From: Denitratisoma sp. DHT3
GTDB lineage: Bacteria > Pseudomonadota > Gammaproteobacteria > Burkholderiales > Rhodocyclaceae
DNA: 64,000 bases
Reading direction: 5' to 3'
NCBI RefSeq assembly: GCF_007833355.1
Contig: NZ_CP020914.1
Span: forward strand, 2,528,047 to 2,592,046
Shown here: positions 14,865-41,969 of the stretch, one piece after another
Numbering within the stretch: position 1 is the first letter of the stretch
Layout of the letters: every line of letters begins with the position of its first letter
The notes under the pieces: generated by a model
Databases searched by the model: none
What the model saw: the letters and a program-made list of their open reading frames with translations, nothing else
Told to the model about the DNA's origin: nothing
Made by a program: the position numbers and the translations under genes

Positions 14865-15572
14865 CTAACTGGCCAGGGAAAACTCCACGGGGACTTCCAC
14901 CCAGGCCTCGACCGGTTCCGCGCCCAGCCGCGCCGGCACGAAGCGCCAGCGCGCGACCGCTTCCCGCGCCGCTTCGTCGAGACGCCGATAGCCGCTGCCC
15001 TGCCTGACCTCCACCCGCAGCGGACTGCCGCCGGCGCTGACGAGGACGCGCAGCAGCACGCTGCCCTCCTCGTTGAAGCGCCGCGAGGCAGGGGGGTAGG
15101 CCGGTGTGGGATTGCGCAGGTAGTCGGCATCAAAGCGTGCGGCTGTGACGATCGGCGCCGACGCCGCGTCCGCCTGCCTCGCCACGGACGTTGCGGCAAC
15201 GGGCGGCTGAGGGGCATGGTGGATGGCCATGGGTTCCGAAGGTGCTGGCACCAGCGGGGCCATCACGTCGGACCGGGGAATCTTGGCGGACTCGCGCGCC
15301 TGGGCCTTGGCCGGAGCCGGCTCGGGCGCCGACGCCGCGACCGTGGCAAGCACCTGGACCGGTACGACCTGTGCGGCCGGCTCGTCGGGTTGTGGCCCCC
15401 GCCCCTGGAGCAGCGCCGCCACCACCGCCGCGTGCAGCAGGAGCACCGCCCCAAAGCACGGGCGGCGCCAGAATGGCCTGGGCCTGACCAGCAACGCACG
15501 ATGGTGGCAGACCGCGCCGGCAAGTGGAAATGCGACTGCATGGCTCACCGGTCTCTCCCTTTTCCCCTTCAA
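14865..15572 (-). CDS. Energy transducer TonB
   Basis: This 235-aa TonB has a transmembrane anchor (about residues 38-58, FGAVLLLHAAVVAALL), a long Pro/Ala-rich periplasmic spacer (about 60-140) and the C-terminal domain. In that domain NPTPAYPPASRRFNEEGSVLLRVLV and GSGYRRLDEAAREAVARWRFVP are typical. TonB carries proton-motive-force energy to outer-membrane receptors. It is transcribed divergently from the TonB-dependent receptor at 15738, so it probably serves that receptor and the second one at 22257-24446. The frame upstream of the anchor has several possible starts. Confidence 0.88.
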   Translation of the reverse strand: MKGKRERPVSHAVAFPLAGAVCHHRALLVRPRPFWRRPCFGAVLLLHAAVVAALLQGRGPQPDEPAAQVVPVQVLATVAASAPEPAPAKAQARESAKIPRSDVMAPLVPAPSEPMAIHHAPQPPVAATSVARQADAASAPIVTAARFDADYLRNPTPAYPPASRRFNEEGSVLLRVLVSAGGSPLRVEVRQGSGYRRLDEAAREAVARWRFVPARLGAEPVEAWVEVPVEFSLAS

Positions 15573-15737
15573 ATCCCGCTGCGGATTCTAGGTTCCCGCC
15601 CCAATCCAATGGAATGCGGCGGAATGTCCCATGCGGCGTTTTGACTCAGGACGGTGACATATGCCGGCCATAGCATTCCCCCCCTCCGCCCCGGCACCGT
15701 ACCCGGGCGCGGCGTTCGTTGAAAGGGAGAGTTCTAA

Positions 15738-17846
15738 ATGCAATCCGCAAACATGCGCCCTCTGTTCCTGCTTACGGTCGTGGCGCTCGGGCCGGCGACG
15801 GCAGCCGCTCAGGAGGTTCGACTGGACAAGATCAGCGTCACCGCCACGCGTGAGGCGAGATCCACCGCCGACGTGCCGCAGGCGATCGCCGTGGTCGGAC
15901 AGGAGACGCTGGACGAGAAGAAGATGTTCAACATCAAGGATGCGCTGCAGGGCATTCCGGGCGTGCTGATCGACAGCAAGAACGGCGGCTTCGACGCTCG
16001 CCTGATCATCCGCGGCGCCGGCCTCAAGGCACCCTACGGCATCCGCGAAATCATGGTGCTGCGCGACGGCGTCCCCCTCAGCGATCCCGACAGCTTCACC
16101 CGCCTGGACTTCGTGGACACGCTCGACATCGAGCGCATCGAAGTGGCCAAGGGACCGGGCAACCTGTTCGCCAGCGGCAGCAGCGGTGGCGCGATCCAGA
16201 TCTTTTCCAAGTCGGTGTTCGAGCAGCGCGCCAACAGCCTGCGCGTGGGCTACGGCAACGACGGCACCGAGAACTACCATCTGCGCTACGGCTGGAAGCT
16301 GGGCGACGACCAGGCCCTGGCGGTGACCCTGACCCACCGCAAAATGGACAACGACTGGCGCTACCGGAACAGGTTCGACACCACCCAGAGCTCGCTGAAG
16401 CACGGCCTGGCGCTGAGCGGCGGCGACGTGCTGGAGAGCGAGATATCCTATTCCGAGGCGAACATGCAATTGCCCGGCGCGATGGACAACGGCGCCGCCA
16501 ATGGTTACATGTTCGACCGCTTCCGCGACAGCGGCAAACAGACGGGCACCTCGGAGGCATGGAAGCATTCGGGGCGCTATTCCAAGGTCTGGTTCCTGAA
16601 TTCCAAGCTTGAAATGCAGCGCGGCGCCTTCACCTTCAAGCCGCGGGTGTATTTCAACACCTGGTACCACTACCACCCGGTGACCGGCATCATCAACGAA
16701 ACCGCCTCCTGGGTCTGGAACCTGGGCACCGACCTGGAAGCCCAGTACAAACATGACCAGGGCAGCCTGGTCGGCGGCCTGACCCTGCGCCAGGAGCGGC
16801 AGCCGGATTCGCGCAAATACCAGTACGGCGACGTCGCGCGGATCGTCGGCGGCCCCCAGGCGGGACGCATCACCGCCACGCTGTCGGACCGCAAGGGCGT
16901 CCTGGCCGAAGTCGACGACAGCAAGACGCTGCTCACCGGCGTCTATGTCCAGGAATCCTGGCGCCCCGACGCGCGCTGGATCGTCGACCTGGGCATGCGC
17001 TACGACACGGTGCGCTTCGAGGATCGCAATCAGCAGTTCTGGAAATTCGACTACGCCAGCGGCCGCTATGTGACCGGAGCGGGACGGAGTTCGCTGACCA
17101 AGACCTTCGACCTGCCGGCGCCCAAGCTGGCGGTCAGCTACAAGCTGAACGAATCCTTCAACGCCTTTGCGATGGTCACCCAGGCCGGCCAGATCCCCTC
17201 GACCAGCGAGATTTCCAACAATCCACGCCTGGAAGCGCCCATCGCCCGCAACCATGAACTGGGACTGAAGGGGCGGGGGTCGGACTGGCAACTGGACGCC
17301 AGTCTGTATTCCAACCCGGTGCGGAAGGAGATCGTGCAGCAGTACAACGGCGGTGTCACCAGCTATCTGAACGCCGGGCGCACCGCCAAGAAGGGCTTCG
17401 AACTCGCCGCGACCCTGGGACTGGGCGGCGGTTGGGAAGGCGGGGGTCACTATGCCTATGCCGACTACAAGTACCAGGACTTCACCGAACTGGTCGGCGG
17501 CGCCAACCTGGACCGCGCCGGCAAGTACCTGCCCTTTGTTCCCAAGCGTCAATACGGTGTCTTCATGGGCTGGAAAGGCGGCTCCTGGCGCGCTCGCCTG
17601 AGCGCCAACTCATGGGGCGAATACTGGCTGGACAACGCCAACACCGAGAAGTACCAGGGCTGGGAATGGGTGACCAACCTTTCCCTGGCGTATGAGCGGA
17701 ACGGCCACTCCCTGAGCCTGAACGTGGACAACCTGGCCGACAAGCACTACGCCTTCGAAACCAAGAAGGACACCAGCGGCCGGGTGACCTATACCGCTGG
17801 CGCACCACGCTCGGTGAACCTGACCTACCGCTACGACTTCCAGTGA
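15738..17846 (+). CDS. TonB-dependent outer-membrane receptor
   Basis: The 702-aa protein starts with a cleavable signal (cut near residue 25, AAAQE), then a TonB box-like DKISVTATRE. A plug domain follows (PGVLIDSKNGGFDARLIIRG, IERIEVAKGPGNLFASGSSGGAI), then a 22-strand beta-barrel ending in aromatic RYDFQ. It imports a ligand across the outer membrane. It leads an operon with a His-rich secreted protein, an Fe-S membrane protein and a DsbD-like membrane protein, which suggests a metal or metal complex. The ligand is not deducible from the receptor alone. Confidence 0.9.
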   Translation: MQSANMRPLFLLTVVALGPATAAAQEVRLDKISVTATREARSTADVPQAIAVVGQETLDEKKMFNIKDALQGIPGVLIDSKNGGFDARLIIRGAGLKAPYGIREIMVLRDGVPLSDPDSFTRLDFVDTLDIERIEVAKGPGNLFASGSSGGAIQIFSKSVFEQRANSLRVGYGNDGTENYHLRYGWKLGDDQALAVTLTHRKMDNDWRYRNRFDTTQSSLKHGLALSGGDVLESEISYSEANMQLPGAMDNGAANGYMFDRFRDSGKQTGTSEAWKHSGRYSKVWFLNSKLEMQRGAFTFKPRVYFNTWYHYHPVTGIINETASWVWNLGTDLEAQYKHDQGSLVGGLTLRQERQPDSRKYQYGDVARIVGGPQAGRITATLSDRKGVLAEVDDSKTLLTGVYVQESWRPDARWIVDLGMRYDTVRFEDRNQQFWKFDYASGRYVTGAGRSSLTKTFDLPAPKLAVSYKLNESFNAFAMVTQAGQIPSTSEISNNPRLEAPIARNHELGLKGRGSDWQLDASLYSNPVRKEIVQQYNGGVTSYLNAGRTAKKGFELAATLGLGGGWEGGGHYAYADYKYQDFTELVGGANLDRAGKYLPFVPKRQYGVFMGWKGGSWRARLSANSWGEYWLDNANTEKYQGWEWVTNLSLAYERNGHSLSLNVDNLADKHYAFETKKDTSGRVTYTAGAPRSVNLTYRYDFQ

Positions 17847-17854
17847 GCGAGGCC

Positions 17855-18766
17855 ATGGCGCATCGACCGATCCTCATCCTGCTGGGCGCGCTCGCCCTGT
17901 CGTCCCCACTTGTCGCGGCCCAGGATGCCGGCCACGCCGGCCATCACACGCATGGCGCCGCCGCGGACGGCGACCGCCCCGCCCAGTCCGCGACAGTGCA
18001 ATGGACCCGTTTCCCCCTGCTGCTGCCGGCCATGGCCGGGCGCGGCGAGCGGAACACGGCCCGGCTGCGGATGGTAAACCTGGCGTCGGCCGGAGTCCGG
18101 GTCTACGCCCCCGACGGTCCGCCGCAGCGTCGCGAGGCGGACTTTCCGGTGGAAGCCGGCCGCGCCAGCATCCGGCCCACCACGGCCGCCACCGGCAACT
18201 ACCACTGGCTGGTGGCGCGCCAGGAGGTGGGCAACGCGGTCAACATCGCCTCCAGCGCCTGGTATTTCAGTAATCCCGGCACCGCGCCGAAATTGCTGCT
18301 GCAACAGGTGAAGCATGAACTGGAGATCGTGCCCCTGCGGCTGCCGAGGGAGCACGGCAGCTATCGGGAAAGCGAGAAATGGCCGTTCCAGGTGCGCTAT
18401 CAGGGTGCCCCGCTGGCCGGCCAGCGCGTCACGCTGGAGACGGAATTCGGCAGCCGCAGCACGCTGACGACCGATGCCCAGGGACAGCTGCTGGTGCTCT
18501 TCCCGCGCGATTTCCCGCCGCCGGAGGCCGCCTCCCGCAGCCGCGGCCAAGGGGAGAGCCATGGGCGGCGGCGCGCCCAGTTCGTCCTGTCCACGGACAA
18601 AAACGATCAGGACAAGCACTACCTGACCGCCTTCAACTACCACTACACCGAGGAACCCGGGCGGCGCCAGAGCCTGGCCTGGGGCGCCGTATTCGGCCTG
18701 ATCGGCATGGCGGCGGCCACGCCCCTGCTGCTGCGCAGGTCCGGCGGCATGCGCAAGGAGACGTAA
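17855..18766 (+). CDS. His-rich secreted protein with C-terminal membrane anchor
   Basis: The 303-aa product has a signal peptide (LILLGALALSSPLVAAQ), then a His-rich stretch HAGHHTHG just after the predicted cleavage site. A beta-rich domain follows with GAPLAGQRVTLETEFG and TTDAQGQLLVLFP, as in DUF4198-like metal-uptake accessory proteins; that resemblance is weak. One membrane helix near the C-terminus (AVFGLIGMAAATPLLL) would anchor it. A GTG at 17843 overlapping the receptor stop is an alternative start. Its stop abuts the ATG of the Fe-S protein. A periplasmic metal-binding role is inferred. Confidence 0.65.
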   Translation: MAHRPILILLGALALSSPLVAAQDAGHAGHHTHGAAADGDRPAQSATVQWTRFPLLLPAMAGRGERNTARLRMVNLASAGVRVYAPDGPPQRREADFPVEAGRASIRPTTAATGNYHWLVARQEVGNAVNIASSAWYFSNPGTAPKLLLQQVKHELEIVPLRLPREHGSYRESEKWPFQVRYQGAPLAGQRVTLETEFGSRSTLTTDAQGQLLVLFPRDFPPPEAASRSRGQGESHGRRRAQFVLSTDKNDQDKHYLTAFNYHYTEEPGRRQSLAWGAVFGLIGMAAATPLLLRRSGGMRKET

Positions 18767-19819
18767 ATGCTTAAGTCCTGGTTTCCGACCCTGGGGCGCC
18801 TGCGCCTGACGGTCCAACTGCTGATGCTGGTGGTGACCGTGTATGGCGGCAATCTGTTCGGCTATTACGCCGCGGAGAAGATCAGCAACGCTCTGCCCGC
18901 CCTGTCCTGCGCCTACGACCAGCAGGACGCGGCGTATTGCATCCTGATCCCGACCCAACATCAAATTCATCACCGCATCGGCGAGGCGATGGTGCGTGCC
19001 CAGCAGCTGACGGTTCAGATGGTGCTGCCCCTGCTCATGACCTTCCTCAGTTTTTTCGCCTTCTTCTTCGTGCTCGGCAAGGCCTTCTGCGGTTGGGTCT
19101 GCCCGCTCGGCACCTTGCAGGAATTGGTCGGGCGCGTGGGCCGACGCTTCAACGTCGGCCTGCGCCGCGTCGAGCCGGGCGACCTGGCGCCGGTGCACCG
19201 CCTGCGACCGGTGAAATGGCTGCTGCTGCTCGGCCTGGTGTTCGTGCTGCCACTGCTCGCGGGCCTCGGCGTAGCGCCGCACAGCCTGGGCAATCCCTAT
19301 TGCGATGTCTGTCCCTCCCGTATCGCCACCACGCTGCTCACCGGCAGCACCGAGCAATTGGCACTCAACATCGGCGACAACGTCAGCTTTGCGCTGGGCG
19401 CCGCCGCCAACACCCTGTTCGGTTTCATCGTCGTCGGCGCGCTGGCGATCCGCCAGCCCTTCTGCCGCATCTGTCCGCTGCTCGCCCTCAATGCCCTGTT
19501 CCAGCGCCTGTCGCCGCTGCGACTGGTGAAGAAGCGGCATGAAAACTGCGGCAAGTGCCGGGTCTGCAGCGAGGCGTGCCCGATGGACATCCCGGAGATC
19601 GCGACCGAGGAGGGCCGCCGCGCCTTTCACGAAGACTGCACACTGTGCGGACGCTGCGCCGAATATTGCCCCCAGGACGGCATCATCAAGTTGCAGTGGG
19701 GACCGCTGGCGCTGTTCTCTTCGCGCCGCGAGTACTACAAGCAGCGGGTCCAGGCCGAACTGCCGGATGGCACCGTGAAGCCGATCAAATTCGTCAACAA
19801 GGTCAAGACCGATGCCTGA
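18767..19819 (+). CDS. NosR/NapH/CcoG-like 4Fe-4S membrane protein
   Basis: This 350-aa inner-membrane protein has several hydrophobic helices and three Cys-rich membrane motifs: FCGWVCPLGTLQE (about residues 104-116), NPYCDVCPSR (about 176-185) and FCRICPLLALN (about 232-242). Two classical [4Fe-4S] motifs follow (CGKCRVCSEACPMD and CTLCGRCAEYCPQD, about 263-300). The layout matches the C-terminal half of NosR and the NapH/CcoG proteins, which pass electrons across the membrane; CcoG is known to reduce Cu(II). The N-terminal FMN domain of NosR is missing. The stop overlaps the next gene by 8 bp. Metal reduction is inferred from the neighbours. Confidence 0.85.
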   Translation: MLKSWFPTLGRLRLTVQLLMLVVTVYGGNLFGYYAAEKISNALPALSCAYDQQDAAYCILIPTQHQIHHRIGEAMVRAQQLTVQMVLPLLMTFLSFFAFFFVLGKAFCGWVCPLGTLQELVGRVGRRFNVGLRRVEPGDLAPVHRLRPVKWLLLLGLVFVLPLLAGLGVAPHSLGNPYCDVCPSRIATTLLTGSTEQLALNIGDNVSFALGAAANTLFGFIVVGALAIRQPFCRICPLLALNALFQRLSPLRLVKKRHENCGKCRVCSEACPMDIPEIATEEGRRAFHEDCTLCGRCAEYCPQDGIIKLQWGPLALFSSRREYYKQRVQAELPDGTVKPIKFVNKVKTDA

Positions 19820-20495
19820 GAGCGCGGCACCCGTCGGCCTGCTGTCGATCTGGCTGCTCGGCGTGTCGATGGGCATGACGGCCTGCACCGTCACCTGCCT
19901 GCCCTTCATCGGCACCTGGACCCTGGGACGGATCAGCGGCAGTGCGGAGGCGTTCACCCACACCAGCGCCTTTCTCGCCGGACGGATCGCCACCTACGCC
20001 CTGCTCGGCGCCCTGGCCGGCCTCGCGGGGCAGGGACTGGCGCGCGCCCTGGGCGGCAACCTGGGCAATGCGGCAATCGGCGCGGCCAGCATCCTGGCGG
20101 GCCTGTGGCTGCTGTGGCAGCCACCACAGCGCGATCGGCGCCGCATCCCGCCTCGCGACGCGCCGGTCCGGTTCCATCCTCGCGGCGCCCGCGGATTCGA
20201 TGCGCTGCCGCCCCTGCTGCTCGGCGGCGCACTCAGCCTCACGCCCTGCGCGCCGCTGGCCTCGCTGCTGGCGCTGGCGGCACAGAGCGGTACCGCGGCT
20301 CAGGGCGCGACGTATGGGCTGACTTTCGGCCTGGGTGCGGCCGTGACGCCGATTCTGGTGCTGGTGCCGCTGGCCGGACGCCTGGGGCGCGAATTGCGCG
20401 CCGGCCGCTTCTGGATCACCCGCTGGCTCAACCTGGGCGCGGCGGGGGTGCTGATCATGCTGGGATTGCGACGCCTCTGGCCGCTACTGGGTTGA
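19812..20495 (+). CDS. DsbD/TauE-SafE-like membrane protein
   Basis: The 227-aa protein has about six membrane helices. Two Cys-Pro motifs in helices, TACTVTCLPFIG (about residues 23-34) and SLTPCAPL (about 141-148), are characteristic of the DsbD transmembrane (DsbD_2) and related heavy-metal transport families. Such proteins move electrons to periplasmic thiols or move metal ions. It is translationally coupled to the Fe-S protein. Substrate cannot be decided between reductant and metal. Confidence 0.75.
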   Translation: MPESAAPVGLLSIWLLGVSMGMTACTVTCLPFIGTWTLGRISGSAEAFTHTSAFLAGRIATYALLGALAGLAGQGLARALGGNLGNAAIGAASILAGLWLLWQPPQRDRRRIPPRDAPVRFHPRGARGFDALPPLLLGGALSLTPCAPLASLLALAAQSGTAAQGATYGLTFGLGAAVTPILVLVPLAGRLGRELRAGRFWITRWLNLGAAGVLIMLGLRRLWPLLG

Positions 20496-20518
20496 ACGGG
20501 GCGGGTCGTGACGAGCCG

Positions 20519-20995
20519 CTACCTTGTCTGCTCCGTCGCCCAGCGCGCCAGGCGTTCGCCGGACACGATGCCGGAAGTCGCCTCGACGCGGTGGGCGGCA
20601 TCGTAGAAATAGGTGCGCGGCAGTTCGCCCCACCAGCGCGGGTCCACCTCGAAGCGCAGCCGCTGCGGCTGGGGCGCGGCGAACACCCACTGCTCGCTCG
20701 CGGCGAGCCCCTGGCGCGCGGCGAAGTCGGCCAGGGCATCGGCATCGGCCGGGGTGTCGGTGGAGACGAGGACGATCTCGACCTTGGGGTGGCGCCTCTT
20801 CAATTCGCCCAGGGCCTTGAGTTCCTTGGGGCAGTGGACGCAGTCGAGCGACCAGAAACTGAGGATGAAGGGGCGCCCCTCGTGCTGGGCGCGAATCCTC
20901 GCCACGCTGCCGCTCTCGAAGGGACGGACTTCGGCGTGGAGCGGGGCGGCGGCGAGCAGGAAGGCGCAGGCGGCGAGCAGGCTGAAACGTTTCAT
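20519..20995 (-). CDS. Secreted thioredoxin-like (TlpA/ResA-type) protein
   Basis: The 158-aa protein has an N-terminal signal (cut near AAAPLHA-E) and a thioredoxin fold with the active site LDCVHCPKEL (about residues 50-59), so it is a periplasmic thiol-disulfide protein. The C-V-H-C pair resembles redox chaperones used in cytochrome c or Cu-site assembly. The cis-Pro region is at LPRTYFY. It is the last gene of the operon beginning with the receptor at 24446 and follows the propeller gene by 9 bp. It could reduce cysteines of the propeller or deliver reductant to a metal site. Confidence 0.82.
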   Translation of the reverse strand: MKRFSLLAACAFLLAAAPLHAEVRPFESGSVARIRAQHEGRPFILSFWSLDCVHCPKELKALGELKRRHPKVEIVLVSTDTPADADALADFAARQGLAASEQWVFAAPQPQRLRFEVDPRWWGELPRTYFYDAAHRVEATSGIVSGERLARWATEQTR

Positions 20996-21004
20996 CCGGA
21001 TTTC

Positions 21005-22225
21005 CTACAGTTCGAACAGACGCAGACCCTCGTCCGCCGTGTTCCAGGCCAGCCAGGCCTTGCCCCGGCCCTCCAGCAGCAAGGGGTAGTCGGCGGCGCC
21101 GGCCGTGGCGGCGCGGGAGACCGGGGCGGTCCAGTGCTGGCCGCGGTCCGCGGAGGCCATGAGCTGGATGCGGGTCTGCCGGCCGTCGAATTCCTGCCAG
21201 GCGAGGAACACGCTGTCGCCATGGACCAGCACGGTCGGATGCCCGGGCTGGGCGTCCAGGTTGCCGAAGGCGAGCGGGGCGCGCGGCGACGCCGATTCGC
21301 CATCCCCGTCGATACGCCGGTAGTAGAGGCCGGCCTTGCCGGCGGCGCCGGTGAACCAGACGAGATGCCGGGCGCCGCGGTCGTCGATCGCCAGCGCGCC
21401 GCCATGATGCGGGCAGCCGTCGATGCGCCAGCCGTCGTCGGTGGCGCGCCGCAACGGCGCGTCGAAGCGGGCGAGGGCGAAATCGCGGATGCCGCCGGCG
21501 AACACGTGCCGCCAGAAGGCCACCGGCATGCCGTCGCGGTCGGCGGCGAGTGCCACCCGGCAGCACTCGCAGGAGTGGTCGGCAAGCTTGCGGTTGGGCA
21601 GGAAGCTCTTGCCGCCGTCGGTGGAGCGGGCGACATACACCGCCGCACCCGCATAGGGCTTGCCGGCGCGGCGGGCGGCCTCGAGGTCGCGCTTGTCCAG
21701 CCAGGCCAGGGACACCTGGCCCCGGGTGTCGACCACCAGATCATCGAAACGATGGCTGATCACCTCCCGATTGTCATTTACCGTTATCGGCACCGAAAAG
21801 GTTTTCCCGCCATCCAGGGAACGGCTGAAGCGAATGTCTCCTGTCGTGGGTTTGTCCAGACCTCGGGTATAGGAAACGAACAGACGTTCGCCACGCACCA
21901 CCAGCTTGGGGCGGTTTTCCCCGTCGCCAAGCACGGCCTCGGGCTCGGGGTTGATCCGCACCGGCGTGCTCTGGGTGGCGCCCAGGTCGTCCGAGTAACG
22001 GGCGTAGAGATGCTGCTCCCGGTACGACACGGTCCACAGCCGTCCCTGATCGTCGAAGGCCGCGGCGATGGCCAGGGAAGGTTTGGCCAGGGTCCTGCGC
22101 CAGAGCGCCTCCCGGTCGGGAGAAGACGCCACCGGTTGGAGTGCGTCAACAGAACGGGCAGCGGGCTCTGCCCTGGCGGAGGTAATCGCGGCAATCAGGA
22201 GCAGGGCAAGAACAAGGTTCTTCAT
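21005..22225 (-). CDS. Secreted BNR-type beta-propeller with Cys motifs
   Basis: The 406-aa protein has a signal peptide (AAITSARA) and repeats resembling sialidase Asp-boxes: RSLDGGKTF (about 132-140), RSTDGGKSF (about 199-207) and SADRGQHW (about 365-372). Automated tools will call it exo-alpha-sialidase. However, I see no Arg triad, and two unusual motifs occur, HSCECCRVAL (about 216-225) and GCPHHGG (about 247-253), which could bind metal. It lies between a TonB-dependent receptor and a thioredoxin-like protein in one operon. A metal-handling role is inferred. Confidence 0.75.
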   Translation of the reverse strand: MKNLVLALLLIAAITSARAEPAARSVDALQPVASSPDREALWRRTLAKPSLAIAAAFDDQGRLWTVSYREQHLYARYSDDLGATQSTPVRINPEPEAVLGDGENRPKLVVRGERLFVSYTRGLDKPTTGDIRFSRSLDGGKTFSVPITVNDNREVISHRFDDLVVDTRGQVSLAWLDKRDLEAARRAGKPYAGAAVYVARSTDGGKSFLPNRKLADHSCECCRVALAADRDGMPVAFWRHVFAGGIRDFALARFDAPLRRATDDGWRIDGCPHHGGALAIDDRGARHLVWFTGAAGKAGLYYRRIDGDGESASPRAPLAFGNLDAQPGHPTVLVHGDSVFLAWQEFDGRQTRIQLMASADRGQHWTAPVSRAATAGAADYPLLLEGRGKAWLAWNTADEGLRLFEL

Positions 22226-22256
22226 TGTCGTGGCAAGGTTGTTTATCCGGCATTGA

Positions 22257-24446
22257 TCAGAATGACGCCCTGACCCCCATGGTCATGTTGAACGGCATGC
22301 CCAGCGCAGGAATAGTCCCTGTCGAAAGGATGGTTCCTTCCTTGGTGGTCACCGCCAGACCCTGGTCGTAATAGCGCTTGTTGCCCAGATTCTGGACTGC
22401 GCCGTAAACCTCCAGTGCTTCGCTGACCTTGTAGCTCACCCCGAGATCAGCCAGCGTGGCGGAACTGTTGCGCTGCGTATGGGCCGTGTTGTTCCAGTAG
22501 GAAGGAAAAGCCTTGAATTGCAGTGACAGGGTCAGGCCAGGAGAGGTCTGCCAGCTTGAGCCCAGGGTTGCCATCCATTGGGGAACTTGACCGAGCTGGG
22601 CATTGACCGGTGCCGCCGGTGCTGCCAAGGACGGCTTTTGCGCGTAATCGGAACTGGTGAGGTACGCAATGGTGCGGGTGACGCCGCCCGTGAATTTCAC
22701 GGTCTTGCTGGCTTCCCAATTCACCAGGAGTTCGGCGCCCTTGAGAATCGCATCACCGGCATTGACGTACTGGTTCACGTTGGTGATGAAATTGGCGGGA
22801 AGGCCGGCGCCGGTCACCAGATAGTCACAGTCCCCGGCGGCGCCTCGGCATACGGGCACATAGTCGATGTAATTCTTCAGCTTGTTGCGGAACATGGTGA
22901 AGGCGACGTCAAGGCCGGGACGAACGTAATCGAAGCCGATTTCCTGTCCCAGATTGGCCTGGGGCGTGAGCGCCTCATTCGTTGCCAGATAGTTGGTACC
23001 GCTTTGTGTGCTGCGGTACATCTGATTCATGCCGGGGGCGGCGAAGTTGCGGTACACCGCGGCACGCACGTCCAACCCGTTGGCGAAGTAATACTTGGCA
23101 CCGAGACGGGGATCGAATTGGCTGTAGGACTTGTTTTCCAGTCTGCTCGTCGCCGCGAAATTTCCGATTTCGTTGCTCACGTTGCCATTCAGCGTGCGGA
23201 AATGATCCTGGCGCAACCCCAGGGTGATATCCAGCGGCATGCCGACCGGGCGATAGGTTCCCTGGGCAAAGACACCTGAAAACCCGTGTTCGGCGCGAGC
23301 GATGATGTGAGCGCTGATGCCGCTGACCTTATAGAAATTATTGTTGTCATGCGCTTTGATGTTGCGGAAGTCGAAACCGACCTTCACATCCTTGAGACTG
23401 CCAAAATCCTTCTGGTAGAACAGCGAGCCGCCAAGGCTGTCGTATTTTGCCTGTTCGATCTGAGAGTAGTAAGGCACCACGACCGCGTTGGGCGACAAAA
23501 TGCTGAATGCCGGCGTGGTATTGGCGTTGGCCGTGGTCATCTCGCCCTCGTTGTACCAGCCGTGCATGTTGATGCTGCCCCCGTCGGCAAACCGGGTGGA
23601 CCCGCCGCCACTGATCTGGATTTTTTCCCAGGAATTTTTGGCGATATCCCAAACTTGGCCGGACTGCTTTGTCGTGTGGCCATTCAGCTTCACGTAATAC
23701 GTTGAATCCCGGGATGGACGGTAATAGGCTGACAATGCCGCATAACCCGTCTCCGATGCCGTCGCCGACATCTTCGAGTTGCGGTACTGACCGGGGGTGA
23801 GCTGATAGCCATCGCTGTTGGCGCCACCGACGCCGATACCGACCGTCAGCGTCTCCGAAGAAAACAGGGTTGCCGCCACATCCCAGATTTTCGTATTGAA
23901 ACTTCCATAGCTCGCATGGACGCGGTTTTCATTGGGCGCGGGCTCCCGGGTCACGATATTCACGATCCCGCCCATGGCGAGGTTGCCCCACATGCTGGTG
24001 GCGCCACCGCCGCGAATCACCTCGATCCGCTCAACGGCATCCTTCGGCACCTGGGCCCAGTCCAGGGTGCGGAAATAGGGGTCATTGATCGGAATGCCAT
24101 CGACCATCACGAGCGTATTCACGTTCGTAGTCGTACCGAATCCGCGAATGCTGAACACTTGGCCCGTGGGATGAATCTGGCCCGCAGGACGCTGGGATGC
24201 AAACACGCCGGGGATCTTGTTAACAATCTGATCCACACTGGTCTCCGGAAAAAGGCGGACTTCCTCTCTGGAGATGATCGTCGTACTCATGTCCATCTCT
24301 TGCAGATTGGATCCCCGCCCCGCCGTGACGGTGATGGCACCGAAATCGGCAATTTTGACTTTGGTACCTTCCGTCAACTCCTTTTCGGCCGAGTGGGCCG
24401 GAAAAGCGCAGGCGAGGGCGAGGACCATGGTGGTGGGGCGCAGCAT
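22257..24446 (-). CDS. TonB-dependent outer-membrane receptor
   Basis: The 729-aa receptor has a signal peptide (LALACAFPAHSAE), a TonB box-like FGAITVTAGRG, a plug with VFSIRGFGTTTNVNTLVMVDG and VERIEVIRGGGATSMWGNLAMGG, and a barrel ending MGVRASF. An ATG at 24455 is in frame but has AAGG directly against it. The ATG at 24446 has AAGGA 8 nt upstream and was preferred. It leads the operon with the Cys-motif propeller and the thioredoxin-like gene, and faces the first receptor operon convergently. A run of ten T on its coding strand lies just before the ribosome binding site. Confidence 0.88.
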   Translation of the reverse strand: MLRPTTMVLALACAFPAHSAEKELTEGTKVKIADFGAITVTAGRGSNLQEMDMSTTIISREEVRLFPETSVDQIVNKIPGVFASQRPAGQIHPTGQVFSIRGFGTTTNVNTLVMVDGIPINDPYFRTLDWAQVPKDAVERIEVIRGGGATSMWGNLAMGGIVNIVTREPAPNENRVHASYGSFNTKIWDVAATLFSSETLTVGIGVGGANSDGYQLTPGQYRNSKMSATASETGYAALSAYYRPSRDSTYYVKLNGHTTKQSGQVWDIAKNSWEKIQISGGGSTRFADGGSINMHGWYNEGEMTTANANTTPAFSILSPNAVVVPYYSQIEQAKYDSLGGSLFYQKDFGSLKDVKVGFDFRNIKAHDNNNFYKVSGISAHIIARAEHGFSGVFAQGTYRPVGMPLDITLGLRQDHFRTLNGNVSNEIGNFAATSRLENKSYSQFDPRLGAKYYFANGLDVRAAVYRNFAAPGMNQMYRSTQSGTNYLATNEALTPQANLGQEIGFDYVRPGLDVAFTMFRNKLKNYIDYVPVCRGAAGDCDYLVTGAGLPANFITNVNQYVNAGDAILKGAELLVNWEASKTVKFTGGVTRTIAYLTSSDYAQKPSLAAPAAPVNAQLGQVPQWMATLGSSWQTSPGLTLSLQFKAFPSYWNNTAHTQRNSSATLADLGVSYKVSEALEVYGAVQNLGNKRYYDQGLAVTTKEGTILSTGTIPALGMPFNMTMGVRASF

Positions 24447-34724: not shown

Positions 34725-35495
34725 ATGCCACCATCCCCCACTCCATCCGCAAGCGCATCACTGCGCCTGGCCGGCCTGCTTTACGGCATCATGGCCTACG
34801 CCGCCTTCAACATTACCGTCATGTATTGCGTCGGCTTTCTCGGCAACTTTCTGGTTCCTCTTTCCATCGACGCCGGACGCGTGCCCGATGCGCCCGGCGC
34901 GGCGCTGATCGATCTGGCCCTGCTCGCCCTGTTCGGTATTCAACATAGCGTCATGGCGCGTCCGGCATTCAAGTCCTGGATCACGCGCCATGTGGCCGCG
35001 GAGCTCGAGCGCCCCACCTACGTGATCCTGTCGAGCATGGTGCTCGCTCTGGTGATGTGGCAGTGGCGCCCGCTGCCGGCCAGCGTCTGGCAGGTCGATG
35101 CCGACTGGGCGCGGGCGGCGTTGTGGACCCTGTTCGCCGCGGGATGGGCGCTGGCGCTGGCGGCCACCTTTTTCACCAGCCATTTCGAACTGCTGGGGCT
35201 CAAGCAGTCATTCGCCTATTTCCGCGGCCGTCCGCACGCACCGGGCGCGTTCCGCGAGCAAGCGGTCTACCGTTGGGTGCGCCACCCCATCATGGTCGGT
35301 CAGATCGTGGCCTTCTGGGCGACGCCGGCGATGAGCCTCGGCCATCTGCTGTTTGCCACCGCCATGTTGGGCTACACCCTGGTCGGGCTGTATTTCGAGG
35401 AGCGCGACCTCGTCGCCGCGCATGGCAATGCCTACCGCGACTATCGACGACGCACGCCGATGTTGGTCCCCCGCAAACCGCGCAGCCGTCATTGA
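34725..35495 (+). CDS. NnrU/MddA-like membrane methyltransferase
   Basis: The 256-aa integral membrane protein resembles the isoprenylcysteine methyltransferase-like NnrU family, especially MddA, which methylates methanethiol to dimethyl sulfide. Matching features are the N-terminal YCVGFLGNFLVPLSIDAG (about residues 34-51), FGIQHSVMARPAFK (about 72-85), RPTYVILSSMVLAL and the C-terminal SAM-binding-like RWVRHPIMVGQIVAFWATP and FEERDL. About five to six helices are present. The ATG at 34725 has a GGAGAG ribosome binding site. The 3' end overlaps the integrase stop by 7 bp. Methanethiol as substrate is inferred from similarity only. Confidence 0.75.
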   Translation: MPPSPTPSASASLRLAGLLYGIMAYAAFNITVMYCVGFLGNFLVPLSIDAGRVPDAPGAALIDLALLALFGIQHSVMARPAFKSWITRHVAAELERPTYVILSSMVLALVMWQWRPLPASVWQVDADWARAALWTLFAAGWALALAATFFTSHFELLGLKQSFAYFRGRPHAPGAFREQAVYRWVRHPIMVGQIVAFWATPAMSLGHLLFATAMLGYTLVGLYFEERDLVAAHGNAYRDYRRRTPMLVPRKPRSRH

Positions 35496-36700
35496 TTTTC
35501 GACACACCCGCGCCCCACGTCGCGGTGCGGATTCACCGGGCAGAATCCGGCCCCGAGGGAATCGACGACGGCATCGCAGGCGTCGAGCAGGGTTTCCTGG
35601 GCCAGATGCGCGTAGCGCTGCGTCGTCCGCACCTGGGTGTGGCCGAGGATCTTCTGCACCTCGTACAGGCTGCGCCCGGCATTGACCAGAAAGCTGGCGA
35701 AGCTGTGGCGCAGGTCGTGTATCCGCACGTCGGCCAGCCCCGCCTTGCGGCGCGCGCTGTCCCACGAATAGAACACGGAGACGAAGGGCCGGCCGGTTTT
35801 CGGACTCGGGAACACCCAGGGACAGTCCTCCAGGCGCGGCACCGCCGCCAGAACCTGCAAGACGCCGCTCGACAGTGGCACGTGCCGGGGCTTGCCCGCC
35901 TTGGTCAGCGGAATGCGCCACTGGCGGCGCTCCAGGTCGAGATCCTCCCAGCGCAGATCGAGCACCTCGCGCCGCCGCGCCCCGGTCAGGATCAGCATCG
36001 GGACGATGAAACGCAGCATCGGATTCGGACTGCCCTCCACCGCCGCGCACAGGCGCCGCGCCTCTTCGGGCGTCAGGAAGCGTTCCTTCATCGGCGGGTC
36101 CTCGAAGAGCGCCACGCCGGCGGTCGGATTCACCGCGATGCCGGGGGTTTCCCAGCGCAGCGCCAGATTGAAGACGTAGCGCAGCATCACCAGCAGGCGG
36201 TTGGCCGAACCCTTGGCCGCGCCGACCGCGCGCCGGCCATGGTGGAGCACGGCGATGTCCGTCTTGGTGATCTCGTCCAGGTGGCGCCGGCCGAGCCGGA
36301 GCGCGACGTGGTTGCGGAACAGCGACTCGTCGCAGCCCCAGGTCTTCTTGTAGCTCTTGGCGAAGGGCAGGTAGCGCTCGTAGAAAAAGTCCCCGAGCGT
36401 CGGCGTCTGGCGCAGGTGGTCTTTTTGTTCGGAAGGGTCGTCGCCGAGCATCACCCGCCCGCGCAATTCGCTGACGCGGTACCGGGCTTGTGCCAGCGTC
36501 ATCGCGCTTGCGTCCCCGATACGATACTGACGCTGTCGACCGCGATCGTTCGTATAGCGTAGATAATAGGTACGACCGCCGGACTGGCGAATTTCGAGAA
36601 CCAGGCCTTTACAACCACGATCCGTGACCTCTACTTTCCCTTTGTCCGCCGGACATAACGCCCCCCTGATGAAAGCCGGGGTGAGTTGCACGATTGCCAT
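35489..36700 (-). CDS. Tyrosine recombinase/integrase (phage/island type)
   Basis: The 403-aa integrase has an N-terminal arm-binding DUF4102-like domain (GLVLEIRQSGGRTYYLRYTN, about residues 31-50), a core-binding region and the catalytic domain. The catalytic residues are Arg in LTGARRREVLDL, His-x-x-Arg in HDLRHSF, His in LGHTQVRTT and the nucleophile Tyr in QRYAHL. It starts at ATG 36700 after a GAGG ribosome binding site. It belongs to a small accessory element with the divergent XRE gene. Its 3' end overlaps the MddA-like gene, which may mark the element boundary. Confidence 0.92.
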   Translation of the reverse strand: MAIVQLTPAFIRGALCPADKGKVEVTDRGCKGLVLEIRQSGGRTYYLRYTNDRGRQRQYRIGDASAMTLAQARYRVSELRGRVMLGDDPSEQKDHLRQTPTLGDFFYERYLPFAKSYKKTWGCDESLFRNHVALRLGRRHLDEITKTDIAVLHHGRRAVGAAKGSANRLLVMLRYVFNLALRWETPGIAVNPTAGVALFEDPPMKERFLTPEEARRLCAAVEGSPNPMLRFIVPMLILTGARRREVLDLRWEDLDLERRQWRIPLTKAGKPRHVPLSSGVLQVLAAVPRLEDCPWVFPSPKTGRPFVSVFYSWDSARRKAGLADVRIHDLRHSFASFLVNAGRSLYEVQKILGHTQVRTTQRYAHLAQETLLDACDAVVDSLGAGFCPVNPHRDVGRGCVENQ

Positions 36701-36725
36701 AATAACCTCATTTGGTAACATAAAT

Positions 36726-36740
36726 GATACATAGTGTATC
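36726..36740. promoter_or_regulatory. Palindrome between integrase and XRE regulator
   Basis: GATACA (36726-36731) and TGTATC (36735-36740) are perfect arms around TAG, inside the 43-bp gap between the divergent start codons and 3 bp before the regulator's ATG. This is the expected place for the XRE protein to repress itself and the integrase. Confidence 0.7.
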
Positions 36741-36743
36741 TTA

Positions 36744-37130
36744 ATGGAATCAATTGTGCATAAAGAGGTCTTTTCATTCGCCATCCAGTTGAAAGCGGCG
36801 AGATCGCTCGTCGGCTGGAGTCAGGCAGAACTGGCGGCACGCACCGGGGTCGCGCGGCCGACGATTGCGCGCATTGAGGCGCTGACCATGCAACCGCGCC
36901 TCGACACCGTGGGCAAGCTCAAGCGCGCCTTTCTCGATGCGGGACTGCAAATGCTGGACGGAGAACCTGTCGGGGGTTTTTCCCTGGTGATGACGTCGGA
37001 GGCGCTGCAGTCGATCATGGAGATGCATCGGACACGGCAGGACACCACATCCGACGGGACGACGAAAACCGGAAGAGTACCGGAAGGTTTTGGCAGTGGG
37101 GCTCGCCGTCAAAACCAAGGGAAATCATAG
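36744..37130 (+). CDS. XRE-family helix-turn-helix regulator
   Basis: This 128-aa protein carries a Cro/CI-type helix-turn-helix at about residues 15-70 (AARSLVGWSQAELAARTGVARPTIARIEA). The remaining C-terminal part has no recognised domain. The last about 25 residues are low-complexity and include a copy of an 18-bp direct repeat. It is divergent from the integrase with a palindromic operator between, so it is probably the element's regulator. No good Shine-Dalgarno sequence precedes the ATG. Confidence 0.8.
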   Translation: MESIVHKEVFSFAIQLKAARSLVGWSQAELAARTGVARPTIARIEALTMQPRLDTVGKLKRAFLDAGLQMLDGEPVGGFSLVMTSEALQSIMEMHRTRQDTTSDGTTKTGRVPEGFGSGARRQNQGKS

Positions 37131-37210
37131 GGTTGATGGTGTTTTACGCCATCCAGTAGTCATATTTCGGGGCTTTTTTCCGGAACGGATTACCGGAAGA
37201 GTACCGGAAG
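37069..37210. repeat. 18-bp direct repeat pair flanking 106 bp
   Basis: CCGGAAGAGTACCGGAAG occurs at 37069-37086 and again at 37193-37210. The first copy is inside the end of the XRE frame, the second in the AT-rich stretch before the S-layer-like gene. It may be an attachment-site remnant or a local duplication. The rest of 37131-37282 shows no gene. Confidence 0.6.
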
Positions 37211-37282
37211 CATCTGGAAAGCTGGTTGTTTTACCTGGAAAATATCTTATTAATCAGTTGGTTGTGATTTTGACAGATTAGT

Positions 37283-40114
37283 TTGCTCACTGCGGATATC
37301 GACAGCGGCACAGCTTTCACTGGCGGCTCTGGTAACGATACCTTCATCGCTGATGAAACCACGACTGCCAAGGTTAGCTTGGCTGACGTTCTGGCCGGTG
37401 GTCTTGGTACTGACTCCCTGACCATCTACAACTCCAAGGGTGTTGCTCCTCAGATGTCCGCCATCGAGAGCGTGACGCTGAATACCATCGCTGGTGACTA
37501 CAATGCTTCCACGGCTACTGGCTTGACCACCTTGAACGTGATCAGCGCCGATGGAACCAACACGTTTACCGTCGGTTCTGGCGTGAGCGTTTCTTTGGCA
37601 AACACTGCTATTGCCAACACTGCCGGCACTAAAGACGATGTGGTTGTTGTCTACGATGCTAACGCCACGTCTGCAACTTTGACGCTGAATAACGTTTCCT
37701 CGGGTGGCACTAACTCCGACCTCGCTATCAAGGGCGCAAAGATTGCAACCCTGAACATCGCGACGACCGGTGCTGCCAGCACGATTGATGCGCTGCTTAC
37801 GGCAACTGACACCGTGGTGGACTCCTACGTCATTACTGGTGACAAAGGTCTGACCATTACCGATGCTTTGACCCTTGCCACCAATGCAACGACCAAGGCT
37901 AATGCCATTACCTCTACTGGCTTGACGGGCGACCTGAGCTACAGTCTTGGCACTATCGCTGCAAACCAGAACGTCACGATTGCTGCTGGTAATGGTGTTA
38001 ACACCGTGACCATCGCTGATGTAAATGTTGATGGTTCTGTGACTGCTACTTTCGGTTCTGGTAAAGATGTCATTACCCTGTCCGATGCGACCGGTTCTGT
38101 TTCAATCAATACCGGTGATGGCGCTGACAAAGTGACGATTTCGAAACTCGACAACAAGTACAACAGCACCGATAAGGAAACGGCTTCTGTCAACTTGGGC
38201 GCTGGCGATGACACTCTGGTAGTTGCCAGTACCGTGACCGAGGCAAACCTTGCTAGCGGTGTAACACTGGCGGGTGGTGATGGTATCGATACCCTGAACA
38301 TCGATAACGATGAGTACCTTAAGTTGTTCGACAACGCAACGGCCGATGTGACCGTTACTGGCTTCGAGAAGCTGGCCCTGCAGAATGGCGACTCTGGTAC
38401 TTTCGACCTGTCCAAGGTTTCGAGCGGCACGATGACCACCGTGGTTCTGGCTGATGGCGTGAATACCGGTGGTGGTCTAGTGGTTTCCAACGGCGCTGCT
38501 GGCTTGACCATTGATTGGGCAGACAAGGATGGTTCTGGCGTAACTGCCGGTGGTGCTGTCGACGTTAGCCTGAAGGACGCCTCTGGCTCCGCAGATGCGG
38601 TGACCCTGAATGTCACCTTGACCGACTCCGACGACACCGTTGATAGCTTGGTTATCGGCGACTTCGAAGTGAAAGCCGACTCGAACAGCAAGACGGTTGA
38701 GACCTTGAACATCGCTGTTGATGGTGCTCTGTCCGCGACGACGGCTTCCAACGTCAAGACCGCTGCTAGCCAGTATCTGCAAATCACCTCGCTGGACCTG
38801 TCCGGCGGCGTGACCACCGTCAACATCTCTGGCGACGGATCCACCAAGATCAACGGCTATGCCAATGCCAGCACCCTGGTGACAGTGAATGCAGCTAACT
38901 CCTCCGGTGCGAACAACCTGAGCGTTGCTGCTGGCACGACCTTCATTGGTGGTACGGGTAATGACACTTTCACCGGCACCCAAGCTCAGTTTGCGGCAAT
39001 CACTTCCCTGACTGGCGGTACGGGCACTGACACGGTTGCGATCACAGACACCGTTTTGACGACCGCTACCCTGACCATTGACGACAAGGCATTCAAGAAT
39101 GTGGCCGCTGCCGAAGCGATTTCCTTCACGGGAGCTAACGCTGGTGACTTCAGCTGGACGCTGGGTGGTTACGCCAACACCTTCGCAACCAACAACAGTG
39201 GTGTTATTACCGCTACTGCCACCGCCCTGGTTGCAGCAGCTGACGGTGACACCATCACCGTGGATGCCTCCGGCCTGTCTGGCACTAATGCTATTAGTCT
39301 GACCCTGACGGACACCGCTGCTCAGGCTGGCAAGACCAACGACATCACCATTACTGGTTCTGCTGGTGGTGATACCCTGAAAATTACCGAAGCCAAGGCT
39401 GGTGCAGGCGGCGACGTGTCTGTAGATGGCGGTGCGGGCAATGACACCATCACCGTGACCGTTACGGCTACTCACGCAGGTACCGTAGCCATTGCTGGTG
39501 GTGCTGGTGATGACACCATTACCGGCTCTGCGATTGGTGACACCATCACCGGTGGGGCGGGTGCTGACAAGATCACCGGCGGTGAAGGCGGCGACAGCAT
39601 TACTGGTGGTACGGGTGCTGATCAGATCATCCTGACCGAAGCTGTTGCAGCTCAGGATACCGTTGTGATTGCTGCTGGCGACTCCAACGTGGATGCTCGC
39701 GATACGGTGACCGGCTTCGCAGCGATTGCTGGTGGTACGGCCGACAAACTGGATCTGGTTGGCGCAGCCACCATCCAGGCTGATGGTGTGACCGACGGCT
39801 CTAACTTCAACACTATCAAGTCGCATACTGTGGCAAGCGGCGTTATCACTTTTGATGATGCGGAGACGTTTGCTGCTGCTGTGACCGTAAACTCCAGCAA
39901 CCTGTCTGATGTTCTTGGTTATTTGGCTGCGAACATCACCGGCGCTGGCGCTACCGTCGGTTTCGCCTACGATTCCAACAGCGATGGTACTAACGATGCC
40001 ACCTTGATCTTCCAGAACAACGCCGGTGGCGACATTCTGGTTGAGTTGGTTGGTGTTACGGGTATCACTGCTGTGGCGGGTGCTGCTGGCGCTAACACCG
40101 TGCTGGTTGGCTAA
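37283..40114 (+). pseudogene. S-layer/RTX-like giant beta-repeat protein, 5' truncated
   Basis: The 943-codon frame encodes a low-complexity Ala/Thr/Gly/Asp/Val-rich protein with repeated G-N-D-T and GGAGADKI-like nonapeptides (for example GGSGNDTF at the very start, GGAGDDTITGSAIGDTITGGAGADKITGGEGGDSITGGTGADQI near residues 741-783). It fits type I-secreted S-layer or surface proteins. No signal or N-terminal DUF4214-like domain is present. An in-frame TGA lies at 37271 and the only start is TTG 37283, mid-repeat. The gene therefore seems to have lost its 5' part where the integrase element abuts. Codon choice (GGT, GCT, ACC, CTG) differs from neighbours and suggests high ancestral expression. 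Confidence 0.8.
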
Positions 40115-40165
40115 TCTTCTTCGGAGGATGCTCCTGGGTATCAGCTCGGGAGTAATGCTTGATCT

Positions 40166-40202
40166 AAAACCCCGCCCCTTGAGAAGGGGGTGGGGTTTTT
40201 TC
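40166..40202 (+). terminator. Rho-independent terminator after the S-layer-like gene
   Basis: AAAACCCCGCCCC and GGGGGTGGGGTTTT form a G/C-rich stem around TTGAGAA, followed by a run of T. It lies 52 bp after the stop codon and separates the giant gene from the downstream methyltransferase. Confidence 0.85.
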
Positions 40203-41702
40203 TTAGGGCACCTTGATGGTGTTTTGAGAAAAGACCCCAATAACGAGAGGAAATGCAATGAGCGACTGGACCGCTGGTTATGTAGCCGACATTGGCTATA
40301 CGTTTGGTTACTATCAGGAACTAAATCCTCTGCGGGTGAAGCTGGCCTTCCTGAATGCCGGTCTCGTTGCACCCGAGTTTGGCATTGCGTGTGAGTTGGG
40401 CTTTGGGCAGGGATTGAGTACCAACATTCACGCGGCAGCCTCGGTGACGCAGTGGCATGGCACGGACTTCAATCCAAGTCAGGCCAGCTTTGCTCAGGAA
40501 TTGGCCACAGCGTCTGGCGCGAGTGCGAAACTCTATGATGAGGCATTTGCTGATTTTGCGGACCGGGCCGATCTACCCGCTTTCGATTACATCGGCCTGC
40601 ATGGCATCTGGAGTTGGATTTCCGATGACAACAGGGCTGTCATCGCCGAATTCATCCGCCAAAAATTAAAAGTCGGTGGGGTGCTCTATATCAGCTACAA
40701 CACCTTGCCCGGATGGTCGTCCTTTGCACCGATGCGCCACTTGATGACTCAGCACGCAGAAATCATCGGCGCAGAAGGACATGGGATTGTCAGTCGAATT
40801 AACGGCGCCATTGAGTTCTCCGAACGACTGCTGTCGACTAACCCAATTTATGCACGCGCTAATCCATTGGCGGCGGAGCGAGTAAAAAAGATTAAAGATC
40901 AAAATCGTCACTATCTGGCTCACGAGTACTTCAATCGTGACTGGCACCCAATGCACTTCGCCACGATGGTCGAATGGTTGGAAAGTGCGAAGGTTCAGTA
41001 CGCCTGCTCGGCCCACTACCTTGACCACATTGATGCCGTGAACCTCACAGGTAATCAACAAACCTTTTTGAAGGAAATCACCGACCCGATGTTCCGAGAG
41101 AGTGTGCGTGACTTCATGGTTAACCAACAGTTCCGCCGCGATTATTGGGTCAAAGGTACCCGTAAGCTAAGTGCGCTGGAGCAGGCCGAGGGGCTTCGAT
41201 CCACCTCGGTAATGCTTGTAGCACATCGAAGTGATGTTTCCCTAAAGGTCAACGGAGCACTTGGTGAGGCCTCAATGAATGCGTCCGTGTACGAACCCAT
41301 TCTCGATGTCCTAGCAGACCACAAGCCACGAACAATTGCACAAATCGAACACGCTGTGACTGATAAAGGAATTACATTTGCGCAGGTCATGCAGGCCATG
41401 ATGGTACTCACAGGGGCGGGATATATTGCGGCGGTTCAACAAGCTGAAGCGATCACTAAGGCGAAGAAAACAACCGAGCGCCTGAATGCACACCTGATAC
41501 ACAAAGCCCGCAGCAGCGGAGATATTGCGTACCTGGCAAGCCCGGTAACAGGTGGTGGCGTAGCGATTGGACGCTTCTCTCAACTATTCCTGTTGGCTAC
41601 TATGCAGGGGAAAAAGCAGCCCACCGATTGGGCACAAGCGGTAATCCCCCCTGAAATTGAAGGTGGTCGGAAGTAGAATTTTCTCGAAAGGGGAAGTTCT
41701 GC

Positions 41703-41969
41703 ATGAAGAAGTCGAAATTCACGGACAGCCAGATCATGGAGGCGCTCAAGAGGGCGGAATCTGGGCTGGCGGTGCCGGAGATATGCCGGGACCTGGGAAT
41801 CAGCTCGGCGACGTTTTACAAGTGGCGGGCGAAGTACGGCGGCATGGATACGTCGATGATCGCGCGCATGAAGGAGTTGGAGCAGGAGAACGCCCGGCTC
41901 AAGAAGATGTACGCCGAGGAGCGCCTCAAGGCCGAGATTCTCAAGGAGGCGATGGCAAAAAAGTGGTGA
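41703..41969 (+). CDS. IS3-family transposase OrfA
   Basis: This 88-aa protein has the N-terminal helix-turn-helix ([36 protein letters not shown]) and a leucine-zipper-like coiled coil ([25 protein letters not shown]) usual for OrfA proteins of this group. It ends in KKW at TGA 41967, just after the A6G slippery stretch. It binds the element ends and regulates transposition. Confidence 0.92.
41957..41963 (+). other. Programmed -1 frameshift site (A6G)
   Basis: AAAAAAG at 41957-41963 lies 4 codons' distance or less before the OrfA stop, with AAGGAGG at 41943-41949 as a Shine-Dalgarno-like stimulator. OrfB lies in the -1 frame. This is the standard IS3 arrangement for making the OrfAB transposase. 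Confidence 0.8.

Follow-up and report, generated by a model that had tools for sequence, protein, structure and literature searches.

Copper import in Gram-negative bacteria, and delivery of the metal to respiratory enzymes, are poorly known. TonB-dependent copper uptake as such has been described (OprC/NosA, CrtA, TccA and PcuB), and a close counterpart of the locus analysed here, which lies in a 64,000-nucleotide stretch of the Denitratisoma sp. DHT3 genome (the window), is the CrtA-CrpH operon of Bordetella pertussis, with CruR in front. In the excerpts of the published accounts used here, this operon joins a copper TonB-dependent receptor to a proposed reductase facing the periplasm (PMC12914433, PMC13038864, PMC9426467), a plan comparable to that of two operons of the window, and many relatives of these operons likewise have a CruR-like open reading frame (ORF) in front. 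The partners differ however: that of CrtA is a PepSY_TM protein, with its gene reported behind the CrtA-type receptor in more than 75% of loci (PMC12914433), whereas the window pairs one receptor with a NapH-like iron-sulfur (Fe-S) protein and a DsbD_2 protein, and the other with a beta-propeller and a TlpA-like thioredoxin. No PepSY_TM gene of the CrtA type lies behind either window receptor, the next genes encoding a DUF4198-like protein or the propeller. CruR-headed operons are also described as including AhpC_TSA, PCuAC and Sco-type genes (PMC9426467), and some of these AhpC_TSA genes may be the TlpA-like gene of our propeller operon.

A second point of comparison is pcuABCDE of Bradyrhizobium japonicum, a copper-starvation operon with a receptor and PCuAC (PMC12617631, PMC6696091). 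One relative of the propeller operon (locus L228) resembles it in carrying a receptor and PCuAC, together with DUF1775 and CopC-CopD genes, whereas the passages available on pcuABCDE mention no propeller or TlpA-like genes and the window's operons have no PCuAC. OprC/NosA and Caulobacter TccA are also TonB receptors for copper uptake, TccA serving the aa3 oxidase, and the part of the source that treats them names no partner genes of the kind found here (PMC12617631).

Our analysis indicates that positions 14865-24446 of the window probably hold two TonB-driven copper-acquisition modules, which would supply periplasmic copper for enzymes such as a cbb3-type oxidase. Module A comprises a receptor (TBDR-A), a His-rich DUF4198-like protein, the NapH-like Fe-S protein and the DsbD_2 protein; module B comprises a receptor (TBDR-B), the Cys/His propeller and the TlpA-like protein. 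All eight ORFs of the island are open, and its features are as follows.

14865..15572, minus strand: tonB (Pfam TonB_C, 73.4 bits, cut-off 24.6); start uncertain, with 15446 as a possible later start
15738..17846, plus strand: module A receptor, a TonB-dependent outer-membrane transporter (Pfam Plug and beta-barrel)
17843..18766, plus strand: module A His-rich exported protein, DUF4198-like, with a predicted C-terminal membrane anchor
18767..19819, plus strand: module A NapH-like membrane Fe-S protein (Pfam Fer4_5 and Fer4; Fe-S cysteines conserved)
18908..18973, plus strand: C48-C58-H65-H69 set in the first loop of the NapH-like protein, predicted periplasmic
19812..20495, plus strand: module A DsbD_2 protein, a predicted thiol-electron carrier (PF13386, 79.3 bits, cut-off 24.9)
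20519..20995, minus strand: module B TlpA-like exported thioredoxin (AhpC-TSA, 30.6 bits, cut-off 26)
21005..22225, minus strand: module B beta-propeller with Cys/His motifs (predicted model, fold matches)
21404..21415, minus strand: propeller CPHH motif (C271-H274; C271 in 132/132 aligned, H273 in 130, H274 in 126)
21560..21571, minus strand: propeller CxCC motif (C219, C221, C222; 132/132 aligned)
22257..24446, minus strand: module B receptor (Pfam Plug and beta-barrel); start may be 24455

An earlier reading of the letters alone (the original prediction) had described a tonB gene, two TonB receptors and two convergent operons, with overlapping or abutting genes in the first of these, and the ORFs and Pfam matches agree with it. 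The minus-strand tonB is followed by the plus-strand module A operon, which faces the minus-strand module B operon across 23 bases. Within module A the receptor and His-rich ORFs overlap by 4 bases, the His-rich and Fe-S ORFs abut, and the Fe-S and DsbD_2 ORFs overlap by 8 bases. A gene that we take to be rpoH adjoins the island, with a presumed ftsX-ftsE pair on the far side. The host genome is a single contig of 3.66 Mb with 35 TonB-receptor barrel matches.

Conservation of the modules and their copper-gene neighbours

Absence of the neighbourhood from related genomes had been named as one finding that would tell against the original prediction, and the neighbourhoods proved to be conserved. 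In a family sample of 121 genomes, the window's own included, the propeller was matched in 41 (two weakly) and the His-rich protein in 15; all 14 other His-rich loci keep same-strand Fe-S and DsbD_2 genes behind, and 13 of them have a receptor in front. The best 80 named propeller loci of at least 537, surveyed within 8 kb on contigs some of which end early, carry a TlpA-like gene (77), a receptor (77), tonB (46), exbB (36) and exbD (35), as well as DUF2946 (7), module A (6), PCuAC (5) and Sco (4). Across a phylum sample of 398 genomes the His-rich profile matched 35 and the propeller profile 21, several of them weakly, and the regions retrieved beyond the family were 20 of 34 for module A and, for module B, the 14 strong matches among 20 genomes; the Fe-S gene and the receptor are present in all 20 distant module A regions and DsbD_2 in 18. 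Since other genera repeat these gene orders, the grouping in the island is not due to chance. In relatives tonB is frequently found beside either module.

The view of the island as a single six-family system was not upheld, as the two modules mostly occur apart: in a survey of 130 module B and 40 module A loci, from which three named loci duplicating unnamed ones were dropped and in which more repeats may remain, module A was present in 10/130 propeller loci. Both modules occur in seven genomes of the family sample, and in five of these, including that of the window, they lie at most 10 kb apart. In Sulfuricella (L111, L113), Sulfurimicrobium (L119) and relatives of Gallionella (L106, L108) the two are joined with tonB-exbB-exbD in a single run on one strand.

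Copper import is likely because relatives carry the modules beside known copper-handling genes. A PCuAC gene lies within 10 kb of 17/39 propeller genes and of 3/15 module A genes, against 0.25 and 0.12 expected from gene number and (rounded) genome size, although these counts are inflated by the many loci that come from related genera and are not independent; they cover 39 of 44 propeller rows (two half-genes of one genome, G012, and three weak rows being dropped) and all 15 His-rich rows. Among representative neighbours Pfam confirmed one PCuAC, one SCO1/SenC and two DUF2946 proteins. CruR-like DUF2946 ORFs, counted with a profile built from four of them, number 28 near the modules (24 loci), all of which contain CxxC while 21 also end close to an exact RAPP, motifs that in CruR are linked to copper sensing and translation stalling in the passages available (PMC9426467). 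In other families of the phylum, the 14 strong propeller loci include nine with PCuAC, seven of them from two genera, and four with DUF2946; at three such loci DUF1775 and CopC-CopD genes follow PCuAC (Pfam-confirmed in L228). Near module A, a Cys-rich Csp1-like protein is encoded in L255, L259 and L260, the L255 protein matching copper storage protein 1 at 4e-16, and in L097 and L098 the module A receptor ORF is preceded, at 137 and 176 bases, by a DUF2946 ORF. Finally, one and the same slot next to purL is occupied by module B at seven loci and by module A at three, with PCuAC retained in 10/10 and Sco in 5/10. The import of a metal such as copper, as first suggested, is thus backed by PCuAC, Sco, DUF2946, CopC-CopD, DUF1775 and Csp1-type genes near the modules of relatives, and copper is likely to be the metal concerned, as the best supported one; the reduction step that accompanied that suggestion stays a conditional part of the proposal.

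Several results weigh against copper, besides the shared ancestry of many counted loci. PCuAC, Sco and DUF2946 genes were found neither beside the window's own modules nor in any of the 20 distant module A regions, and the copper link is thinner for module A than for B, with 13/40 loci showing one, ten of them via module B. TBDR-A matches CrtA (9rvq) weakly, at 3.1e-15, compared with 4e-29 for YncD, and is thus closer to PqqU/YncD, while neither window receptor matches the OprC/NosA model TIGR01778 (cut-off 472.45) at E 0.01. A solved DUF4198 relative is, moreover, described in the excerpt seen as preferring nickel and as gaining no stability with Cu(II) (PMC12537917).

This last finding bears on the possibility that module B serves copper and that module A imports nickel, zinc or cobalt and merely accompanies it. 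The DUF4198-like protein has a predicted fold like that of Zcp, solved in zinc, cobalt and copper forms, and of a nickel-bound DUF4198 protein, and DUF4198 genes elsewhere are reported to adjoin nickel and zinc genes (PMC12537917, PMC4176598, in excerpt); the lack of PCuAC, Sco and DUF2946 in the distant module A regions fits as well. However, module A occupies the same purL slot as B with PCuAC kept there, it has the DUF2946 ORFs of L097 and L098 and the Csp1-like neighbours, its receptors mix with those of B (see below), and an electron-carrying partner would be harder to explain if the metal were zinc or nickel, which are redox-inert. We regard this division of labour as improbable.

The Csp1 relative, together with the Cys/His and thiol-redox proteins, would also fit storage or repair, and the passages available discuss proteins of the DsbD family in connection with copper resistance (PMC7785015). 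That the modules serve copper stress or envelope thiol repair instead of uptake is nonetheless very unlikely to us. Against it stands the presence of a TonB-dependent receptor, often accompanied by a tonB-exbB-exbD set of its own, since such receptors serve uptake. The CruR-headed operon of B. pertussis is, in addition, downregulated by copper according to the same excerpts as above (PMC9426467).

Receptors and the nature of their cargo

The receptors vary more than their partners. TBDR-A shares 56-64% identity with its counterpart in front of the His-rich gene at five family loci, and about 20-27%, where it matches at all, at eight others; at several module A loci a receptor identity of 20-27% to those of the window contrasts with 64-78% for the Fe-S protein. 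TBDR-B is 60% identical to the module B receptor of L010/L054. A FastTree tree was built from 82 of the 119 receptors collected (31/31 A and 51/88 B), and because its long branches meet, nothing beyond the supported intermingling of A and B receptors is used here: one supported clade of 26 intermixes 19 B and 7 A receptors, and supported branches require at least four changes of label. This mixing, read from a divergent alignment, suggests one kind of cargo for both modules.

A ferric chelate, with reduction of the iron after import by both modules, is a quite improbable cargo in our view. The nearest solved relatives of TBDR-B are ferric-enterobactin receptors (3.5e-18), both receptors give scores with subfamily models for siderophores and heme, and the modules occur in iron oxidisers such as Gallionella. 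Yet all these subfamily scores fall below the curated cut-offs, the window has no Fur box at up to 3 mismatches, and the neighbours found are copper genes. In the least likely reading, the cargo would be an organic cofactor, for instance PQQ, with the propeller as a YncE-like partner of the receptors; the PqqU model reaches 119.5 bits against a cut-off of 1200, and the Cys/His set of the propeller and the copper neighbours would be left unexplained.

Copper, presumably taken up as a chelate, would be the cargo of the window's receptors. CrtA (9rvq) is not among the matches of TBDR-B at E 0.001, and the alignment to CrtA, whose essential histidine is H358, spans chain residues 30-177 and 564-729 only. 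Another receptor type found near the modules (cluster 9, including L054:2096-4288 and L113:11545-13728) reaches 116.8 and 112.4 bits with TIGR01778, again under its cut-off. The TBDR-B gene has a G+C content of 58-59% against 65-71% around it, which fits a recently acquired receptor.

No CruR-type DUF2946 ORF with CxxC and RAPP stands in front of either window receptor, and the one PCuAC and the Sco genes of this genome lie away from the modules. Its one DUF2946 gene (CTTC, with RAPP near the end) directly precedes a different TonB receptor (C1:3499298-3501661; L268:9140-11980), so that a receptor operon headed by CruR seems to exist elsewhere in the genome. The genome also encodes a true CcoG (TIGR02745, 515), and since the genes beside it, which we take to be ccoN, ccoO and ccoP, point to a cbb3-type oxidase, the organism has a use for copper.

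Module proteins and a proposed route for copper

The His-rich protein scores 29.3 bits with DUF4198 (PF10670), under the cut-off of 34, and precomputed annotation assigns the domain to some homologues. Its profile found nothing below 0.17 among solved structures and only fold comparison was informative: the predicted structure matches solved DUF4198 metal-binding proteins, namely Zcp and IsDUF4198 (PDB 9mhl and others, 9gcb), which bind metal through histidines, some near the N-terminus. The window protein shares 14-18% identity with these and differs in its extra predicted C-terminal anchor.

The Fe-S protein, first described as NosR/CcoG-like, is indeed a Fer4 membrane protein, and its highest score is with the NapH/MauN model TIGR02163 (72.9 bits, under the cut-off of 213), ahead of NosR (40.4). 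An assignment to CcoG was rejected at 19.8 bits with TIGR02745 (cut-off 316.7). CcoG is comparable in being an Fe-S protein of the membrane with a proposed role in reducing copper for the assembly of oxidases, and is described in the excerpted account as acting in the cytoplasm (PMC13038864), whereas the window protein has the C-C-H-H loop, predicted from helices and charges to face outwards. The set is retained in at least 40/41 aligned proteins and is absent from an orphan NapH (L067) and from this genome's CcoG; on sequence grounds it appears to be described here for the first time. The PF13386 score supports the DsbD-like membrane protein that had been predicted, and C25, C29 and C146 of this protein are present in 37/37 aligned sequences.

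Some distant genomes encode, between the module A receptor and the His-rich gene, a small exported protein with N-terminal Cys/His residues (L254:7480-8004, with an LTXXQ-family match; L258:7379-7891; L259:8885-9391). Near module A in L093:2890-6958, L094:445-4499 and L095:14538-19262 there is a heavy-metal P-type ATPase gene, adjoining a second DsbD_2-type gene and two small conserved genes.

In module B, both motifs ascribed to the propeller, CECC (residues 219-222) and CPHHGG (271-276), are present, and the invariance of the CxCC and CPHH cysteines across 132 propellers seems, from the alignments, to be a new description. The protein scores 25.6 bits with BNR_2 (sialidase, PF13088; cut-off 31.4) and has three Asp-box-like motifs. 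Its model (pLDDT 90.3) has propeller folds as best structural matches, and its sequence gave a single match to solved structures, at 0.07. Zcp apart, we noticed no copper protein among the best 50 fold matches listed, an absence that means little. The secreted CxxC protein of the original prediction, with C52 and C55 in 124/124 aligned sequences, is named TlpA-like because the NCBIfam equivalog NF047696 is not reached (22.2 bits, cut-off 230), AhpC-TSA is, and the CxxC is invariant. Source annotations call the module genes sialidase, lipoprotein, glycoside hydrolase, DUF4198 or hypothetical. As a lead outside bacteria, a figure legend on clusters upregulated under copper limitation in the archaeon Nitrososphaera viennensis lists DsbD alongside a putative sialidase, a possible parallel to the module genes, and CopC/D are reported there among the most upregulated genes (PMC7785015, in excerpt). 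In Nitrosomonas L138 and L148 a single run holds two propeller and two receptor genes, perhaps linked to the copper need of ammonia oxidisers.

From these features a route for copper may be proposed. In module B the receptor would import a chelated copper ion, the CxCC and CPHH residues of the propeller would hold it and the TlpA-like protein would keep the propeller thiols reduced, the copper then passing to PCuAC and Sco, encoded nearby in many relatives and elsewhere in this genome. In module A the receptor would supply the HxH site of the anchored Zcp-like protein, while the NapH-like protein would move electrons outwards to the C-C-H-H loop, so as to reduce Cu(II) or release copper from its chelator, and DsbD_2 would give thiol reducing power. 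On this proposal, cargo of one kind would be handled by either module as an alternative back-end.

Elsewhere in the window, a probable mobile insertion of low G+C (about 54-57%) lies at 35489-42790; it holds a phage-type integrase, a transposase-like gene and a protein of 943 aa that matches an RTX repeat. No Rfam match reached the gathering score at 13-26 kb or in the whole window, and promoter and terminator scans, at or below the shuffled level, were set aside.

Our literature search, judged mostly from titles, the starts of abstracts and passages, returned nothing tying this propeller or Fe-S protein to copper uptake, and these two components may prove new. With chances that we put just short of even, the propeller would be a new class of periplasmic copper carrier and the NapH-like protein a new outward-facing cupric reductase, as interchangeable back-ends on swappable TonB receptors, spread among oxidisers of ammonia, nitrite, iron and sulfur. 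The first of these groups also uses copper for the oxidation of ammonia itself. If true, the modules would offer copper carriers and an outward-facing reductase that can be put to the test, not only in Denitratisoma but also in the other genera that carry module genes, which include Nitrosomonas, Nitrotoga, Gallionella, Sulfuricella and Ralstonia.

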